DNA from: Deltaproteobacteria bacterium
Lineage (GTDB): Bacteria; Desulfobacterota; Desulfobulbia; Desulfobulbales; Desulfurivibrionaceae
Assembly: GCA_021847425.1 (NCBI GenBank)
Contig: JAJZRF010000018.1
Span: 1-46,997, forward strand
Reading direction: 5' to 3'
DNA length: 46,997 bases
Each line of letters starts with the position of its first letter. The stretch's first letter is position 1. Below are positions 5,895 through 32,928 of this stretch, in pieces. The position numbers were made by a program, and so were the translations under genes. A model generated the notes under the pieces. It made no database searches. It had not been told where the DNA came from and saw only the letters and a program-made list of their open reading frames with translations.

Positions 5895-8447
5895 TCATTT
5901 CTTCCTGCCATTCTTGCCGCAGCACCGTTTGTATTTCAGCCCGCTGCCACAGGGGCAGTCGGAGTTGCGTCCTATCTTGTCTCCCTCGCGGGAGAACGGC
6001 TTGTGGGCATTATCCTCCTCATCGGCGCCACGGCTCAGCTGCATGGGCAGCCGCTGCTCCCGTTGCTCGCGCTCCAGTTCGGCCACCTCCTCGTCGCGCA
6101 CCAGCTGGAGCCGGAACAGGGTGCTGACGGTCTGGGTCTTTACCGTGCCGATCATCTCCCCGAACATGTTGAATCCTTCTCTTTTGTACTCATCCAGCGG
6201 ATTCTTCTGGCCGTAGCCGCGCAGGCCAATGCCTTCCTTCAGGTGATCCATGTTGAGCAGATGCTCTTTCCAGTGATGATCCACGATCTGCAGCAGAACA
6301 ACCCGCTCCAGATGGCGCATGTTCAAATCGCCGATCTCCTGCTCGCGCTTGGCATAGCGGTCTTTCAACGCAACGAGGATCAGAGCGGCAAGGCCGGCGG
6401 AATCAAGATCCTTTTTCTCCTCCTCGCGCCACTCCCCGGCAAAGCCGAACAGGGCCGACAGCCTCTCGGAAACCCCGGACCAGTCCCACTCCTCCGAAGG
6501 GACCCGCCCATCAGCGAACTCGCCGGCCACCATGTCGGCCAGCCCCGGGAGCATCTCGATCACAACCTCATGGACATCCTCGGAGGCCAGCACCTCGCGG
6601 CGCTGGCGGTAGATAACCTCCCGCTGCTTGTTCATCACATCGTCGTATTCGAGCAGGTGCTTGCGGATATCGAAGTTATGCCCCTCCACCTTGCGCTGGG
6701 CGTTTTCAATGGCCCGGCTGATCATGGTGTGCTCGATGGGCTCGTCCTCTTCCATGCCCAGCTTGTCCATGATGCCGGAGATGCGGTCGGAGCCGAAGAT
6801 CCGCAGCAGATCATCCTCCAGCGAGAGATAGAAACGGGAGGAGCCGGGATCGCCCTGACGCCCGGAACGGCCGCGCAACTGGTTGTCGATCCGGCGGCTC
6901 TCATGACGGCTGGTGCCCAGGATGTGCAACCCGCCCAATTCTGTTACCCCCTCACCCAGCTTGATGTCGGTGCCCCGGCCCGCCATGTTGGTGGCGATGG
7001 TCACCTTGCCCTTCTGTCCGGCGTCGGCAACAATCTCGGCCTCCTTCTCATGCTGCTTGGCGTTGAGCACCGCATGGGGAACTCCCTCCTTCTTGAGCAT
7101 GGCGGAGATCTTCTCGGAAACATCGATGCTGATGGTGCCGACCAGCACGGGCTGGCCCTTCTTGTGCAATTCCTGAATCTCCCGGATGATGGCGCGATCC
7201 TTGGCCTTGGCGTTTTTATAGATGACATCGGCATAATCCTTGCGGATCATGGTGTTGTGGGTGGGGATGATCACCACATCGAGATTGTAGATCTTCTTGA
7301 ATTCCGCAGCCTCGGTGTCCGCGGTGCCGGTCATGCCGGAGAGTTTTTCATACATGCGGAAATAATTCTGGAAGGTAATGGAGGCAAGGGTCTGATTTTC
7401 CTGCTCCACCTTGACCCCCTCCTTGGCCTCCAGGGCCTGGTGCAGACCATCACTGAAACGACGGCCCTCCATGGCCCGGCCGGTAAACTCGTCCACAATC
7501 ACCACCTGGCCGTCCCGCACCAGATAATCCACGTCCCGCTTGAAAAGCACATTGGCCTTCAAGGCCTGGTTCAGATGATGCAGCCACTCGATATTCCGGG
7601 GATCATAGAGATTGTCCACGTTGAGCAGCTTTTCGCCCAAGGTCACGCCCTCGTCGCTGAGCGAAACGGACCTGGTTTTTTCATCCAGGGTGTAATGCTC
7701 GTCGGCTTTGAACTTGTGGATGATCCGGTTCACCCGTTCGTACAGCTCGGTGGACATCTCCGCGGGCCCGGAGATAATCAGGGGGGTTCTTGCCTCGTCA
7801 ATGAGGATGGAGTCCACCTCGTCGACAATGGCGTAGTTGAACTCGCGCTGGCAGAATTCCTTGAGGTCGAACTTCATGTTGTCGCGCAGATAATCAAAGC
7901 CGAATTCGTTGTTGGTCCCGTAAGTAATGTCGGAGGCGTAGGCCTCCCGGCGGGCCGCATCATCCATGTCATGCAGGATGGAACCAACGCTGAGGCCGAG
8001 AAAGCGGTAGAGCTTGCCCATCCACTCGGCATCGCGCCGGGCCAGATAATCGTTGACCGTGACCACATGCACGCCGCGACCGGGAAGGGCATTGAGATAT
8101 ACCGCCAAGGTGGCGGCCAGGGTTTTTCCCTCGCCGGTTTTCATCTCGGCGATCTTGCCCTGATGGAGAACCATGCCGCCTATGAGCTGCACGTCGAAAT
8201 GACGCATGCCCAAGACCCGCCAGGCCGCCTCCCGGCAGACGGCAAAAGCCTCGGGGAGCAGACTGTCAAGGGACGCTCCGGCAGCGAGCCGCTCCCGGAA
8301 AAGCCCGGTCCTCGCCGCAAGAGACCCATCATCGAGCTTTTTGATCTCGGGCTCCAGCTGATTGACCGCCGCAACCATGGGTTGAATGCTTTTAAGAACC
8401 CGCTCATTTTGGCTGCCAAAAACCTTTTTTAAAACAGAACCGAACAT
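5895..8447 (-). CDS. secA: Preprotein translocase ATPase SecA
   Basis: SecA drives proteins through the SecYEG channel by ATP hydrolysis. The start at 8447 gives 850 residues beginning [16 protein letters not shown], with GGAG 7 bases upstream; a longer reading to 8492 is not supported. Visible features are Walker A MKTGEGKT (about 102-109), the [20 protein letters not shown] box, the preprotein-crosslinking region, the [13 protein letters not shown] motif and [13 protein letters not shown]. The C-terminal SEC-C zinc motif [13 protein letters not shown] that contacts SecB and lipids is intact. Length and motif order are normal. It sits 69 bases downstream of the ArgA-like gene and one base upstream of argJ. 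Confidence 0.97.
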
Positions 8448-25335: not shown

Positions 25336-27060
25336 ATGGGAAAAAAAATCGTGATCATCGGCGGGGTTGCCGCCGGACCAAAATCCGCCTGCCGGGTAAA
25401 ACGCCTGCTGCCCGATGCCGAGGTGACCATCATCGACCAGGACAGCCTGATCTCTTACGGAGGCTGCGGCATCCCCTATTATGTTTCCGGCGATGTCTCC
25501 GATGAAAAGGAGCTCAGAAACACCAGCTTCCACATGACCCGGGATGAGTCCTTTTTTCTCAAGGCCAAGGGGGTCACCGCGAGAACCAACACCCTTGCCC
25601 TGGCCATCGACCGCAAGCAAAAACTCGTGCTCGTCGAGGATATCAAATCCGGCGCCCAGGAGTCCATCCCCTACGACAATCTGGTCATCACCACCGGCGC
25701 CCGGCCCAATGTCCTGCCCATTCCCGGCGCGGACCTGGACGGCGTGTTCACCATCAGCGACCTGCACAAGGCCATTGCCATCAAGGAACGGATTGCCAGG
25801 GGCGAGGTGACCCATGCGGTGGTCATCGGCGGCGGCGCCATCGGCATTGAGATGGCCGAGGCCTTCACTGACCTGTGGGGAATCGACACCACCATCCTTG
25901 AATTCATGCCCCAGATCATGCCCCGCTTGGTGGACTGGGATTTCGCCAGAATGCTGGAAACGCATCTTCAGGAAAGCGGCGTGAAGGTATTTACCGGCGA
26001 GGCAGCCTCGTCCATCGAGGGGAAAGACGGCAAGGTCTGCCGGGTTGTCACCCCCAAGCGGACCCTGGAGGCGGATCTAGTCGTGATGGCCGTGGGGGTT
26101 AGAGCAAGAAGCGAGCTGGCCCAGGCGGCCGGGCTGCTTGTCTCCGCCATGGGCAACATCGTAGTCAACGAACGGCTGCAGACCTCGGACCCGAACATCT
26201 ATGCGGCCGGCGACTGCATCGAGGTGAAAAACATCATCACCGGCAAGGGCTCCATCGCCCCCATGGGCTCGCTGGCCAATCGCGAAGGAAGGATCGTGGG
26301 GGACAACCTGGCGGGTATCCCCACCAGATACAAGGGCTGGATCGGCAGCTTCATCATGAAGGGTTTCGAACGCTGCATCGCCGCCACCGGCCTTTCCCTG
26401 GATGCCGCCCTGGCCGAAGGGTTTGCTGCCGCCGCCGTGACCACCGCCCAATCCGACCGGGCCCATTTTTTCCCAAACCAAACCGTTATCCCGCTCCGGA
26501 TCATCTTTGACACCAAGACCCGCAAGGTTCTCGGCTGCCAGGGCTTCGGTCCCATGAGCGACGCGGTGCTGGCCCGGATCGACGCCGCCGCCGCCGTCAT
26601 TGGCCAGGGTGGCACCATCGATGATCTCAGCCAGCTGGAAATGGCCTACGCCCCGCCATTTTCCACGGCCCTCGACGCCTTGAACGCCACGGCCAACGTG
26701 GCCGACAACCTGGCTGCCGGGCGGCTGCGGTATGTGAGCACCAGGGAGTTTCTCAATTGGATGGACGATTTTGCCAGCCAGCCGGACTGGGTGGCCCTTG
26801 ACCTCCGCCACCCCAACGAGGCCCGAGCCTTTGTCGAGAAATACGGCAAGGACCGATGGCTCTCCGTCCCCTACATCGAGATCCGGGACCGGTATCAGGA
26901 TTTGCCCAAAAACAAGACCATGCTCATCATCTGCGATGCAGGCACCCGCTCTTCCGAGATCCAGATCTTCCTAGACCATGCGGGGCTTGCCAACAACCTG
27001 GTTCTGGGCGGCGGCTTCAACCTCATCCGCCGGATGGGCGTGGCCTGGTGGCCCAGCTGA
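25336..27060 (+). CDS. CoA-disulfide/polysulfide reductase flavoprotein with rhodanese domain (Npsr/CoADR-Rhd type)
   Basis: The 574-residue protein starts at 25336 with AAGGA upstream. The N-terminal FAD site is KIVIIGGVAAGPKSACRVKR and the redox-active cysteine is C44 in ISYGGCGIPYYVSG. The NAD(P)H site is HAVVIGGGAIGIEMAEAF, and NIYAAGDCIEV closes the FAD fold. A dimerisation domain follows and then a rhodanese domain (about 465-574) with its active-site Cys at about 533 (ICDAGTRSSE). Such fusions reduce CoA disulfide, CoA-persulfide or polysulfide, with the rhodanese passing sulfane sulfur. Next to dsr genes a role in sulfur/polysulfide reduction or persulfide detoxification is likely (inference). 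Confidence 0.92.
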   Translation: MGKKIVIIGGVAAGPKSACRVKRLLPDAEVTIIDQDSLISYGGCGIPYYVSGDVSDEKELRNTSFHMTRDESFFLKAKGVTARTNTLALAIDRKQKLVLVEDIKSGAQESIPYDNLVITTGARPNVLPIPGADLDGVFTISDLHKAIAIKERIARGEVTHAVVIGGGAIGIEMAEAFTDLWGIDTTILEFMPQIMPRLVDWDFARMLETHLQESGVKVFTGEAASSIEGKDGKVCRVVTPKRTLEADLVVMAVGVRARSELAQAAGLLVSAMGNIVVNERLQTSDPNIYAAGDCIEVKNIITGKGSIAPMGSLANREGRIVGDNLAGIPTRYKGWIGSFIMKGFERCIAATGLSLDAALAEGFAAAAVTTAQSDRAHFFPNQTVIPLRIIFDTKTRKVLGCQGFGPMSDAVLARIDAAAAVIGQGGTIDDLSQLEMAYAPPFSTALDALNATANVADNLAAGRLRYVSTREFLNWMDDFASQPDWVALDLRHPNEARAFVEKYGKDRWLSVPYIEIRDRYQDLPKNKTMLIICDAGTRSSEIQIFLDHAGLANNLVLGGGFNLIRRMGVAWWPS

Positions 27061-27086
27061 TTGCTCCAGATACCCGACACAGGAGA

Positions 27087-27659
27087 ATGGCCGTCGGCCC
27101 AACACCGTTGGCGGCCATCCTCCTGGTCTGCCTGCTTGCTGCCGGACCGGCTTTCGCGAGCAGAACCCAGCCAAATGCACCCGTCCCCGCCAAACCCGGA
27201 GCAGTAGTCCGGGCCCTGGCCGATGCGGCCTATGGCGACACCCTGGCCGCACTGATCACAAACGCTGCCCAGCGGATTGATCTCGCCATGTTTCTTTTTA
27301 AAACAAGCCCGGCCAGCGACAACCAACCGGCAAGGCTTGTCAGGGATCTGGTGGCGGCAAGACAACGGGGGGTTAAGGTGCGGGTTATCCTGGAATATTC
27401 CAGCCACGACGAGGCACTCAACCGGGCGAACCAGGAAACCGCCCAGGCCCTGAGAAAGGGGGGCGTCGCCGTCTTCTTCGATTCCCCCGGCCGGACAACC
27501 CATGCCAAGCTGGCGGTCATTGACCGGCGCTACTGTCTGGTGGGAAGCCACAACCTCACCCAGTCGGCCCTCAGGTACAACCATGAGTTTTCCCTGTTGC
27601 TCGACAACCCGCCACTCGCCGAGGAAATCCTGGCCTACATGGAAACAGTCCTCCACTAA
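27087..27659 (+). CDS. Secreted PLD-family phosphodiesterase (single HKD motif, Nuc-like)
   Basis: The ATG at 27087 gives 190 residues starting MAVGPTPLAAILLVCLLAAG, a signal peptide ending near A-F-A-S. AGGAG lies almost directly against the start, which is unusually close, so the start is not certain. One HKD motif is present (HAKLAVID followed by LVGSHNLTQSALRYNHE), as in Nuc-type endonucleases that act as dimers. KVRVILEYSSHDEAL is a family strand. A periplasmic or secreted nuclease or phospholipase is expected. It lies 26 bases after the CoADR stop and is probably cotranscribed. Confidence 0.87.
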   Translation: MAVGPTPLAAILLVCLLAAGPAFASRTQPNAPVPAKPGAVVRALADAAYGDTLAALITNAAQRIDLAMFLFKTSPASDNQPARLVRDLVAARQRGVKVRVILEYSSHDEALNRANQETAQALRKGGVAVFFDSPGRTTHAKLAVIDRRYCLVGSHNLTQSALRYNHEFSLLLDNPPLAEEILAYMETVLH

Positions 27660-27683: not shown

Positions 27684-30371
27684 TCACTTCTTCCTCCGGA
27701 CAATACGGACCTTTCTGGTTGCTCCGCCAGCACCCCCGCTTCCCGGAGCAACGCGGCGGACCAGCACTTTCTTTTTCACCGGCGCGCCGACCGGCCCGGG
27801 TTCCGCGCCGGAACTCCCGGACAGGGGCCGCGTAAAGGTGCAGCCGGCCCTGGGACATCGCAGGGAGAGTCCGCCGTCAAGATTCTTTTTTTCCACCAGA
27901 AACGGAGAATCGCACACCTGACAGGCAATGGCGTGGGGCTTGGACCAGGCCATGAATTCACAATCCTGCTCGGGACAGACATAAAAAGTCTTGCCGGTCG
28001 GCGTATGCTTGGTCACCACGGTGCCGATCCGGCACACCGGGCAGAACAACCCCACCCCGCCGTCTTTTTCGTAGGATTCGGAATACCGGCATTGGGGATG
28101 CCCGGAACAGTACCAGTACTTGCCGAAACGATCCTCCTTCAGCAACAGCAGCCTGCCGCAGTCGGGACATGGCTTGCCAGGCTCCGCCGCCGGGCCGCTT
28201 GGTTCGACTACAGGGGAAATCCCCGCCCCTGCCCCCGGAGGTGTCGGCTCTTCGATGGAGGTCGCGGCCTCGGCAAAGATCTTTTCCGTGGCTGCGGCAA
28301 GTTCCGGAGAGGCAACCTGTTCCACCGCCGCAGGTTCATCCAGGACAATGGGCTCCTGCGCCTCTTCCTTGCCGGACCCGGGCTCTTCCCTCTCGCTCTC
28401 CCCCGCTTCCACCCCGCCGCTTGCGGAACCACCCTCTCCCGCAGGCACAGTCTGCGGTGCTCCATCGGCTGCGGCAGACTCCACGCCCGATTCCGGCGAC
28501 GGCTGCGCCCCTGCATCCAAAAGCGATTCCCGGACAAGCGGCAACGTCTCCTTTTCCACTTGGGCCGGGGCAGCCCCACCCCCTGAATCCTGGATCTTTG
28601 CCGACCCGGCTTCTTCGGGCAGCCTGATAACGCTCCGTGAACTGATCCCCCGCTTCTGAATGGAAACCGGCATCGCCATTTTCACCAGCACCTCGCCCCG
28701 CATCATCATTGTCTGGTCAAACTGTTGCAAGGCGGCGGCCAGATGTTTTCTGCCGCTCACCGCCTCCTCGATGGTCTGGGCCAGATAGGCGGAAAGCTGA
28801 ATCCCCTTCATGGACGGGAAAGCCCGGTTCATGACGCTGACAAGCTTAAAGGTGTTCTCGGCGCACCGGAAAGACCCGTCCGGCATCATTCTGAGATAAT
28901 TGTTGTCGAGCATCTGCTGGAGCATGGCCACGGTCATCCCGTCGATCTCCAGGGAAAAATCGACAAGATCGGTGGCCAGCCCCTCAAAGCTGTAATACTC
29001 AGGGGGAAGTCCGGTATTTTTTTCCGGCATGATCTGCACGCAGTGCAGCGCCTGACCCGGCTGTACCCCAGCCAAAGGAGAAGGCGGCGCCAGAAGTTCA
29101 TGTTCCTGACAGCCGGGATAGATGGCCAGAAACCCCTTATCGGCGAGAACCTTGGCGCGGCCCTGGAAGATGCAGTCTTCCCCGGCCGCCACCGTCACCG
29201 CGAGAAGCTCCCCTTGTGCCTCTTTCATCTGGCTTGCCAAGGCTCTGGCCCAGACCAGCCGGTAGATTTTGTCCTCCGCCGCTCCCAGTTTTCCGCCAAG
29301 CTCTTCCGGGCCAAGCTCCGGCAGTGTCGGAAGAATCCTACCCCGGACATTTTCCTGAAGAATCTCCGGACCCAGACAGGCCTCGCCCAGCCTTCTGCCA
29401 ACCTGCGCCCTGATCTTCGCAAGCACGGCAACAGAGGCGTCCTGCTCCATGGCCGGAGGCAGAAATGCGGTGACAAGCCCCAGCCAGCGGCCATCCACCT
29501 GCACGCCGTAATAGAGGTTGCGGATCGCGGTCATTGCCGCCAGCGGCGAAAGCCCCGCCTGCGCAACCCCGTCCCGTAAGAGTTCCAAAAAATGGTACGG
29601 TTCCGGCGGGGCAACCGCCAGAGGGGAACTTGCCACTTCCCTGACCTGAAACGACGCATTGTTAAAAAGATTGATAACGGTATGCACCTCTTTCTCATTG
29701 CGCAAAAAACCGTCATCGGTAACACCATATGCCTCATCCAGCCTGAGAATGCAGTCCCCCGCCTCGCTGCCGATCTTGACCTTCACCTTCCATTTGGCAA
29801 GCGGGGTGTACATCCGGATTTCGGTCTCCCTTTCCGCCAGCAAAAAAATGGCGGTGAGACTCGGATAGTTGAGCGGCAGGCCATTGGGGCCGGAGCGGCT
29901 GCCCAAAAGGCGTTGCAGGTGCCTCCCCAGATAGGATTCGAAAAGCATCTTGACGCAGGTCGCAGCGCCTTTCCCGTCGCTGACCGGCTCCACCCGCCGA
30001 AAGGATTCCCGGAGGGCCTCTCCGGCAAGACCGGTCAACCCCAGCCGCTTGGGCTGCTTACTGCCGGGAGCCACCGTGGCCCAGTAGCCGCTGATCAGCC
30101 AGGACCAGAACTCCCCCCGCCAGTCGCCATCAAGGGCGAGATATATTTCCCGCCCCTGACAGGCCAGAAGTTTGTCCAGAAATATTTTCCCCTTGGGTTC
30201 CGGGGCAAAATCGAAATGCGGTCTTTCCCGACGCATATGGTCTTGGGGAGAAATATAGGACGCCGTCGCCGGAGGCGCTTGCACCAGGATGGTCTCCACT
30301 TCTCCACCAAGCTGATCTTCCAAGGTTTTTGCCTTGGCGGCCACCTCGACAATGACTACGGGCTTTGCCAT
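27684..30371 (-). CDS. Topoisomerase IA-like protein lacking the catalytic tyrosine, with zinc ribbons and a basic tail
   Basis: The start at 30371 (MAKPVVIVE, GGGAGAGG upstream) gives 895 residues. The order matches bacterial TopA: a Toprim domain (VIVEVAAKAKTLE, 6-18; LALDGDWRGE, 78-87), then LAERETEIRMYTP (178-190) and a region aligning with the gate domains. TopA has GLITYMRTDS around its active tyrosine; here the aligned segment is GLVTAFLPPA (298-307), so Tyr becomes Ala and the following Arg becomes Leu. The GRVQS and HEAIRP motifs are also lost. After a Pro/Glu/Ala-rich linker (about 640-733) come three zinc ribbons (about 735-847) and a Lys/Arg tail. It is probably a DNA-binding paralogue without strand-passing activity. 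Confidence 0.85.
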   Translation of the reverse strand: MAKPVVIVEVAAKAKTLEDQLGGEVETILVQAPPATASYISPQDHMRRERPHFDFAPEPKGKIFLDKLLACQGREIYLALDGDWRGEFWSWLISGYWATVAPGSKQPKRLGLTGLAGEALRESFRRVEPVSDGKGAATCVKMLFESYLGRHLQRLLGSRSGPNGLPLNYPSLTAIFLLAERETEIRMYTPLAKWKVKVKIGSEAGDCILRLDEAYGVTDDGFLRNEKEVHTVINLFNNASFQVREVASSPLAVAPPEPYHFLELLRDGVAQAGLSPLAAMTAIRNLYYGVQVDGRWLGLVTAFLPPAMEQDASVAVLAKIRAQVGRRLGEACLGPEILQENVRGRILPTLPELGPEELGGKLGAAEDKIYRLVWARALASQMKEAQGELLAVTVAAGEDCIFQGRAKVLADKGFLAIYPGCQEHELLAPPSPLAGVQPGQALHCVQIMPEKNTGLPPEYYSFEGLATDLVDFSLEIDGMTVAMLQQMLDNNYLRMMPDGSFRCAENTFKLVSVMNRAFPSMKGIQLSAYLAQTIEEAVSGRKHLAAALQQFDQTMMMRGEVLVKMAMPVSIQKRGISSRSVIRLPEEAGSAKIQDSGGGAAPAQVEKETLPLVRESLLDAGAQPSPESGVESAAADGAPQTVPAGEGGSASGGVEAGESEREEPGSGKEEAQEPIVLDEPAAVEQVASPELAAATEKIFAEAATSIEEPTPPGAGAGISPVVEPSGPAAEPGKPCPDCGRLLLLKEDRFGKYWYCSGHPQCRYSESYEKDGGVGLFCPVCRIGTVVTKHTPTGKTFYVCPEQDCEFMAWSKPHAIACQVCDSPFLVEKKNLDGGLSLRCPRAGCTFTRPLSGSSGAEPGPVGAPVKKKVLVRRVAPGSGGAGGATRKVRIVRRKK

Positions 30372-30461
30372 GCACCTCTCCCCTCGCATTTTCCAACTAC
30401 AAAAGGCCCTTGCTTCAGAAAAAACAGTGAAGGAATTCCCCTCCCTGCTCGAAAAATAGCA

Positions 30462-30467
30462 TATAAT
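30462..30467 (+). promoter_or_regulatory. Perfect -10 hexamer in the divergent gap
   Basis: TATAAT occurs on the plus strand 74 bases before the SUMF-domain gene. No matching -35 hexamer is seen 16-18 bases upstream, so an activator may be needed or the match may be chance. The 169-base gap serves both divergent genes. Confidence 0.3.
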
Positions 30468-30540
30468 CTGCAACAACTTTATACAATGAATTATCAGCAC
30501 CCTTTTTCCCGATTGCCAATCCATTCAACCGGAGCCCCCC

Positions 30541-32928
30541 ATGCCTTCCCTGGTCACCCTCCAAGGCATTGATGAAACCCTTGCCAACCTGGAATTAAAG
30601 CAGGGAACCCTCAAGGCGGAACTGGCCAGGGTGGTCCGCTCGTATTTCACGGATGAGCGTTCTTTGCAGACCATCTCCAGCATCCCCACCGATGAGATCG
30701 TCCTCAAAATTTGGGGGGGGTGCCAGGGTGACGAACTCAAGGCCAAAAAGAAAAACTTCAGCTCCCTCAAGTCCGCGCTCAACAAATCCCTCAAAGACCT
30801 CGACAAGGCAGGAAAAAATGAGGCAGGCATCGTTCTGGGGCGGGACAATGTCTTTATTGTTTCCGAAGAGCGCAAGGATGATCTTCTCAAACAGATGGGA
30901 CTTTCCCCAAACTCTCCCCATCTTCTCCACGACATGTTCGCGGCCTTCAAAAAATTCTTCTCCGAAAATATCAAGGAGCAAAACGCCCAAGAGATCAAGG
31001 AGCTGCTGGCGGAGTTTGAAGAGACACAAAAAAAATTACGCGCGCTGTCCGGCCTCGAACCGGAGGCTGTCCCCGAAAAAAGCCCCACTGAGACTGCGAT
31101 ACCGGAAGAAATCTACCCCCCGGACGCAGGGAAAAAAAACGAAGAAGATGTTGATGCTGAAACCATTGAGCTCCTTGAGGGAGACGAACTCGAAATTATT
31201 GAGGAGAGCGAAACGATCGCAGGCGAAGAGCCTGACGAAACCGAACTCCTGGAAGAGGAAGTGGAAATCCTCGAAGCCGAAGAGCTGGAGGAGGTGCTTG
31301 GGGAAGGGACTCCACTCGCCGAAGGGTTGGGCTCGGAAGAAGGCGGGCTGACAGAGGAACAGCTCGCCGAAGAGGTTGAAGTTCTTGATGAGGACGAGAT
31401 CGAAGAGGTCGCGGGCGAAGAGCCCGACGAAACCGAACTCCTGGAAGAGGAAGTGGAAATCCTCGAAGCCGAAGAGCTGGAGGAGGTGCTTGAGGAAGGG
31501 ACTCCAACGGCCGAAGGGGTGGGCGCGGAAGAAGGCGGGCTGGCAGAGGAGCCACTCACCGAAGAGGTCGAAGTTCTTGACGAGGACGAGATCGAAGAGG
31601 TCGCAGGCGAAGAGCCTGCCGAAACCGAACTCCTGGAAGAGGAGGTGGAAATCCTCGAAGCCGAAGAGCTGGAGGAGGTGCTTGAAGAAGGGACTCCAAC
31701 GGCCGAAGGGGTGGGCGCGGAAGAAGGCGGGCTGGCAGAGGAGCCACTCACCGAAGAGGTTGAGGTTCTTGACGAGGACGAGATCGAAGAGGTCGCGGGC
31801 GAAGAGCTGGAGGATTTTTTTGAGGAAGAGGCTCCACCCGCCGAAGGTGTGGGTGCGGAAGAGGGCGGGCTGACAGAGGAACAGCTCGCCGAGGAGGTTG
31901 AGGTTCTTGACGAGGATGAGATCGAAGAGGCCCCAGACGAAGACCTTGATGTCGCCGGAATCCTCGAAGAATATACACTGGAGGAAATTGAAGCCTCAGC
32001 GGAGCCCCTGGCGGAAAAGCCCCATCAGCCAACCCCCCTGGAGGTTCTTTCAAAATACATTGAGGCGGAAGAGGCTGTGAACCAGGGGGACTTGCTCCGG
32101 GAAACCCAGGAGGAGTTCATCAATCAGATCCTTGAACGTTTCATGCCGAAATTCATCAAGATCCCGAGTGGCGTCTATCTGGTGGGCAGCGCCAGCCCCA
32201 AAGGGTTGGAGCAACCCCTGCGAAAGGTCGCGCTCCATGATTTCTATCTTGGTCAATCGCCCGTGACCAACGACCTGTTCGATATGTTTGTCCGGGAAAC
32301 AGGGTATACGACCGATGCGGAGGAGGCCGGCTACGGCATTGTTTTCGAAGGTCGCTGCACCGCCAGGACAGACCCGGAAACCGGCAGGGAAACCTTCAGC
32401 CTGACCCAGGGAACCATTGCCCGCCATGTGAGTGGCGCAAACTGGCGCCATCCTGCAGGACCGGGCAGCAGCCTGGAAGGAAAACACAACCACCCGGTGG
32501 TGCAGGTCAGCCACAACGACGCCCTGGCCTTTGCCGCCTGGGCCGGGAAACGGTTGCCCACGGAAGAGGAATGGGAGGCCGCGGCCCGAGGCGCAAATGG
32601 CCGGCTCTTTCCCTGGGGTGACCTCTGGCAGGCCGACCTTGGCAATTTTGAGGCCGCCTGCCTCGGCGGCACAACCTCTGTCGAACATTTCGGACGCAAG
32701 GGTATGAGCCCCTTCGGCATCTATGACCTGCTGGGCAACGTGGCCGAATGGACCGCCTCGGCCCATACCGGACAGACAGACGCGCAGCAGCCAGGTCGAT
32801 CAGCGGAGAAAATCCACATCATCAAAGGCGGCTCCTGGATAACCGGCGGAACCGTAACAGCGGCCTGGCGTCAGATCGAACGGGAAAAATACTGGACAAA
32901 TACCATCGGCTTCCGCTGCGCGGTATAA
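30541..32928 (+). CDS. SUMF/FGE-sulfatase-domain protein with acidic tandem repeats
   Basis: The 795-residue protein starts at 30541 with GGAG 6-8 bases upstream. Residues 1-165 are helical ([41 protein letters not shown]). Residues about 165-500 are extremely acidic and include a 64-residue repeat encoded by 192-bp DNA units. Residues about 540-795 are a SUMF domain ([94 protein letters not shown]). Only the last of the two oxidase cysteines of true formylglycine-generating enzymes is present, so it is probably a binding or other SUMF variant. No signal peptide is present. It is divergent from the TopA-like gene. Confidence 0.85.
31228..31941 (+). repeat. 192-bp in-frame tandem repeat array
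   Basis: Units start at 31228, 31420, 31612 and 31804, exactly 192 bases apart. Three are full and the fourth is 138 bases, lacking the part coding for [18 protein letters not shown]. Units are nearly identical at DNA level, which points to recent expansion. The encoded 64-residue unit is mostly Glu, Asp, Leu and Val. Confidence 0.93.

Follow-up and report, generated by a model that had tools for sequence, protein, structure and literature searches.

The genetic locus

A gene on contig JAJZRF010000018.1 (assembly GCA_021847425.1, order Desulfobulbales) raises the question of what a topoisomerase that has lost its catalytic residues is retained for. The stretch analysed (the window) comprises positions 1 to 46,997 of this contig. 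At 27684-30371, on the minus strand, it encodes a full-length homologue of the type IA topoisomerase TopA of 895 amino acids, referred to here as dead TopA. The explanation favoured, with moderate confidence, is that dead TopA is a pseudo-topoisomerase that binds DNA without cleaving it and serves as a scaffold within a complex of two proteins, the second protein being encoded by the adjoining divergent gene. All of the work was carried out by sequence analysis and prediction; pseudoenzyme status and partnership are read from sequence, and the function is inferred.

A TopA homologue without its catalytic residues

The open reading frame (ORF) of dead topA is open from position 30524, and homologues were found to begin at an identical MAKPVVIVE, corresponding to a start at 30371. 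Matches were obtained with Pfam (Topoisom_bac, 1.7e-21; Zn_ribbon_Top1, 8.6e-11) and NCBIfam (topA_bact, 4.6e-37, 128 bits against a cut-off of 456). A profile of 32 family members (alignment A3), compared with one built from eight canonical TopA sequences, gave E = 6.8e-88 over 732 columns. Homology to type IA topoisomerase, in both sequence and fold, spans domains I-IV, with E. coli TopA (3px7, 4rul) being the closest solved structure to the AlphaFold2 model (Z about 15-16). The three zinc ribbons are complete (Cys 735/738/755/761, 777/780/799/804 and 817/820/839/844) and the basic tail is intact. The profile match and the presence of all twelve ribbon cysteines uphold the TopA architecture, from Toprim to three zinc ribbons, that was proposed in the initial annotation.

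The catalytic centre was found to differ throughout. GLVTAFLPP aligned on GLITYMRT, with A302 in the column of the catalytic Tyr (E. coli Y319) and L304 in the column of the Arg two residues later (E. coli R321), a residue that is strictly conserved and critical in type IA enzymes (PMC7587558). In the profile alignment PLNYPSLT replaces GRVQS, while the HEAVRP block reads RGRILP, the catalytic His being R343. These replacements agree with the earlier observations that the active-Tyr segment reads GLVTAFLPPA rather than GLITYMRTDS and that the GRVQS and HEAIRP motifs are gone. The initial annotation had also listed D81, D83 and E87 as retained Toprim acids. D81 and D83 of the DxD motif are kept, as are the Toprim Glu E9 and K13, but the third acid of DxDxE is R85, and E87 aligns with a Glu two residues beyond that position which is no metal ligand. 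No unrecognised Tyr was placed at the active position by the profile alignment. Features of the gene are as follows.

27684..30371, minus strand: catalytically dead TopA paralogue, 895 amino acids (Pfam, NCBIfam, profile alignment)
29982..30371, minus strand: Toprim region, residues 1-130, with E9, K13, D81 and D83 retained
30111..30131, minus strand: DGDWRGE, DxD retained and third DxDxE acid replaced by R85 (alignment)
29811..29957, minus strand: domain IV piece 1, residues 139-187, also in short forms
29451..29480, minus strand: GLVTAFLPPA, former active-site segment, Tyr to A302 and Arg to L304 (profile alignment)
28692..29006, minus strand: domain IV piece 2, residues 456-560, with the family motif SGRKxLxxALxQFDQT
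28179..28676, minus strand: variable linker rich in Pro, Ala and Glu, residues 566-731 (dN/dS 0.36-0.57; charge count)
28089..28169, minus strand: zinc ribbon 1, missing from short forms
27960..28043, minus strand: zinc ribbon 2, in long and short forms
27840..27923, minus strand: zinc ribbon 3, in long and short forms
27687..27782, minus strand: basic tail KKKVLVRR...KVRIVRRKK, in long and short forms

Conservation and distribution of the family

The genome also carries one canonical topA, adjoining dprA (named from its sequence), with GLITYMRTDS, GRVQS and HEAVRP intact. A codon search for GLITYMRTD found a single site per genome in 49 of 58 relatives, the genome of the window included.

Searches were made in samples of 146 genomes of the order and 297 of the phylum, many of them metagenome-assembled, and in the order a genome was counted as a carrier where its match stood clearly above the canonical TopA background. 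Homologues of dead TopA were identified in 57 of the 146 genomes of the order. Named records of homologues include Deltaproteobacteria, Desulfobulbaceae and Desulfurivibrio, and the carriers are a group of sediment bacteria. None was found in the sampled genomes of two other families of the order (f11 and f12) or, within the family to which the window belongs, in those of one genus (g2).

Frames were intact in orthologues at 41-82% identity, and the ratio of non-synonymous to synonymous substitution rates (dN/dS; Nei-Gojobori, eight pairs) was about 0.08-0.15 for the core, 0.04-0.18 for the zinc ribbons and 0.36-0.57 for the linker. In 32 diverse members the site two residues after the Tyr column held neither Arg nor Lys in any protein, and a Tyr was aligned in the catalytic column in one only, without the Arg. 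The RK of the SGRK motif was present in all 32. Position 9 is Glu or Asp in 31 of them, D81 is kept in 23 and D83 in 26, and the ribbon region of some long forms has only eight Cys. As judged from these alignments, the catalytic site drifts in the dead-TopA family while other sites are fixed. The gene is not regarded as decaying, because homologues occur in 57 of 146 genomes, core dN/dS is 0.08-0.15 and, of the 32 members, none has the Arg and one has a Tyr at the site. The dead-enzyme reading of the initial annotation is thus sustained, with orthologues sharing the losses under purifying selection and a normal topA present in the genome of the window.

The one protein in which a Tyr falls on the catalytic column is that of locus L067 (7113-9719), which reads GLILYPDQ and is missing both the Arg and the DxD acids.

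A divergent partner gene

In 39 of 41 loci compared, the gene adjoining the start of dead topA was found to be divergent and to belong to one protein cluster. This partner, absent from the initial annotation, is a more informative fact than the dead site. In the window its N-terminal domain of 120 residues is joined by a very acidic linker to an FGE-sulfatase domain (PF03781, E 6.3e-52).

30541..32928, plus strand: partner protein, 795 amino acids, divergent
30541..30900, plus strand: partner N-terminal domain, winged-helix-like, used as marker of the module
31066..32040, plus strand: partner acidic linker, 138 Asp/Glu against 4 Lys/Arg in 325 residues
32146..32922, plus strand: SUMF1-like FGE-sulfatase domain of the partner, catalytic Cys pair missing
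30372..30540, no strand: control region shared by the two divergent genes, containing a promoter-like block and a terminator-like hairpin ahead of dead topA

When the N-terminal domain alone was searched for, it was detected in 52 of the 57 dead-topA carriers of the order and in none of the other 89 genomes. At the level of the phylum the partner was present in 14 of 15 genomes with a TopA-derived relative and in none of the other 282. Fisher P values of 3e-34 (order) and 4e-23 (phylum) are not to be taken literally, because the genomes are related to one another; the weight of the co-occurrence lies in how exactly the two sets overlap in seven families. Four of the five carriers of the order without a partner (G005, G007, G010 and G138) have their dead-topA match within about 300 bases of a contig start, the fifth being G071. 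In the one partner-less carrier of the phylum set (G219), the match lies close to a contig end.

The FGE domain aligns with human SUMF1 at 1.5e-41. Equivalents of Cys336 and Cys341, the active-site Cys pair of FGE (PMC4505483), are absent from the corresponding 18-residue stretch of the window partner; among the partners listed this stretch never holds two Cys, with a few having one. The linker contains a tandem repeat of 192 bp (31217-31807; 3.1 copies, 94% matches). The N-terminal domain was modelled with a predicted local distance difference test score (pLDDT) of about 90 over residues 11-110. Its match to the winged helices of OmpR/PhoB is weak (Z up to 7.5 over 81-84 residues, root-mean-square deviation about 3, Foldseek E 0.2), and assignment of the modelled domain as a winged helix is suggestive only.

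Between the two genes (30372-30540), a conserved promoter-like block and a dyad, GTGAAGGAA-N6-TTCCTTCAC, with a T run after the dyad, lie ahead of dead topA. The terminator-like hairpin lies at 30429-30444 on the minus strand, its left arm being imperfect in the window, and it is possibly an attenuator or an operator. An Rfam scan of the locus gave no match.

Two further genes of the locus were noted on the other side of dead topA. A PLD-family protein with DrmC-like PADLOC matches and a signal-peptide-like stretch is encoded at 26856-27659, convergent with dead topA, and its cluster occurs in 29 of 41 loci. Adjoining it, at 25336-27060, is the gene for a pyridine nucleotide-disulfide oxidoreductase with a weak rhodanese match, the cluster of which was found in 26 of 41 loci.

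Short forms and ParA loci outside the order

In five families outside the order (f31, f47, f50, f75 and f89), a shorter relative of about 460-500 amino acids, where complete, was identified. These short forms have neither Toprim nor arch. They retain equivalents of residues 139-187 of the window protein joined to those of 456-560, along with a linker, the second and third zinc ribbons and the basic tail, and the partner is still present. Profile comparison gave E = 3.4e-62 between short and long forms and 3.7e-19 between short forms and canonical TopA. A full-length form also occurs outside the order, in family f53. In a tree of domain IV the long-form clade had a support of 61 and the short forms were not monophyletic, so the order of gain and loss is not settled.

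Gene order differs among these families. In f31 the genes for the short form and the partner lie side by side and share a direction. In f47 and f89 a gene for a ParA-type ATPase (AAA_31, 1.8e-10 to 1.4e-53; the ATPase of locus L127 is inferred from its position only) and one for a small protein of 134-167 amino acids, without a Pfam family above cut-off, precede the short gene, with the partner divergent. Three loci have the ParA-type, small-protein and short TopA-derived genes in a row with a divergent FGE partner.

L096, 6514-9260
L126, 1531-4128
L128, 1-2000

In genome G364 the short-form gene is split over two contig ends (L128 and L129) inside a long repeat of the (EVQKE)n type, which is probably an assembly break at the repetitive linker. 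In f31 genomes a PilZ-domain gene (6964-7314 in locus L092) lies just upstream of the short form, with genes resembling those of sugar-nucleotide enzymes downstream.

Proposed function and alternative explanations

The loss of the catalytic Tyr/Arg pair, the purifying selection, the specific partner and the minimal set of retained parts are established at the level of the sequences compared. Published work places the G-strand of type IA enzymes in domain D4 (PMC7587558) and assigns binding of single-stranded DNA to the zinc ribbons in E. coli TopA (PMC4678816). In the scaffold proposed here, domain IV, where TopA holds the G-strand, would together with the zinc ribbons and the basic tail bind single-stranded or underwound nucleic acid and leave it uncut. 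The partner would attach to duplex DNA, the basic tail or both by means of its winged-helix-like domain and acidic linker, and the two proteins would form a DNA-associated complex, which a ParA ATPase and a small adaptor may position in some lineages. A nucleoid or repair scaffold, as suggested in the initial annotation, is a possible role. Several points count against this proposal. The AlphaFold2 model of dead TopA is only fair (mean pLDDT 54), and the winged-helix match falls below Z of 8 with a Foldseek E of 0.2. In the long forms the arch is complete and the Toprim acids often survive, features that a pure domain-IV scaffold would not require. No ParA gene stands beside dead topA in the window, and a search of 58 relatives of the window genome for the small protein that accompanies ParA elsewhere found none.

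Among the alternatives, the dead copy could be a decoy or antagonist that is in competition with TopA over DNA, or attaches to RNA polymerase via its zinc ribbons, and so tunes supercoiling in transcription. The full TopA architecture and zinc ribbons beside a normal TopA would suit such a role, and among the references of PMC4678816 is a paper on a direct interaction between RNA polymerase and the TopA zinc ribbons. Short forms that lack Toprim and arch and have two ribbons only nonetheless keep the partner, and the FGE domain of the latter is left unexplained, so this is considered unlikely. Slightly less likely still is a pair of regulators in which the winged helix of the partner is the sequence-specific part and dead TopA opens or holds the promoter, the pair controlling itself and nearby genes. 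The shared divergent control region, with its conserved promoter-like block and hairpin, and the winged-helix-like fold agree with this, but neighbouring genes vary among families and a protein of 895 amino acids with a topoisomerase fold is unneeded for a single-locus regulator.

Retained enzymatic activity appears less probable again. E9, D81 and D83 could still bind metal in a Toprim hydrolase, either a nuclease or an RNA-acting enzyme, and the near-constant acid at position 9 (31 of 32) with the majority retention of D81 and D83 speaks for it; the loss of D81 from about a quarter of long forms, and of Toprim altogether from short forms, makes it improbable. It is very improbable that the protein still works as a type IA topoisomerase by means of a relocated or substitute Tyr. 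In 5 of 32 members the next position, column 303, does hold a Tyr, and L067 has one in the aligned column, but the Arg is found in none of the 32, L067 is without the DxD acids, and no Tyr column near the site is conserved (the best being Y287, in 15 of 32), for which reason a relocated catalytic Tyr was rejected. The motif losses, and nothing further, would fit a decaying pseudogene or an assembly artefact. The initial annotation had argued from the intact frame against decay, and this explanation, left with a negligible probability, is refuted by frames that are intact across dozens of genomes, by strong purifying selection, by the distribution and by conserved synteny.

Two further readings were rejected. 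PADLOC models gave no match for dead TopA or its partner, and the housekeeping neighbourhood is conserved within the order, which argues against a defence system. A mobile origin was rejected as the partner domain had no match in the plasmid and phage collections searched, and no relatives were found in viral contigs, the latter being weak evidence since a TopA query there likewise returned nothing.

Relation to known systems and significance

Dead TopA has in common with bacterial TopA the order of domains, the fold (3px7, 4rul, Z about 15), K13 and three four-Cys zinc ribbons. It differs in being without the catalytic Tyr and Arg, the third DxDxE acid, GRVQS and the catalytic His, and in having its own SGRKxLxxALxQFDQT motif and an FGE-domain partner. 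YrdD of Enterobacteriaceae, a zinc-ribbon protein that binds single-stranded DNA (PMC4678816), likewise has TopA-type ribbons without topoisomerase catalysis, whereas the dead-TopA module also has a dedicated partner and either a topoisomerase core or domain IV. That partner shares the FGE-sulfatase domain with FGE/SUMF1 (PF03781), but lacks the equivalents of Cys336/Cys341 and carries an acidic linker and a winged-helix-like domain in the same chain. As for ParA positioning systems, in two other families ParA and a small protein, itself outside any Pfam family above cut-off, are encoded next to the module, while the window locus has no ParA. A literature search for an inactive type IA paralogue found no conserved catalytically dead family described in the papers searched.

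Tentatively, the locus may represent an undescribed chromosome-handling system of two proteins (four genes in some lineages) whose components are two retired enzymes, a topoisomerase IA that no longer cleaves and a winged-helix FGE protein without its Cys pair, with the topoisomerase fold stripped in places to its strand-binding domain. The series from the full fold to domain IV with ribbons indicates the part that the function needs. If confirmed, the type IA fold can be retained purely for holding DNA, natural non-cleaving relatives would be available for studies of strand binding, and an unannotated DNA-associated complex would be added to those of Desulfobulbales-type bacteria.
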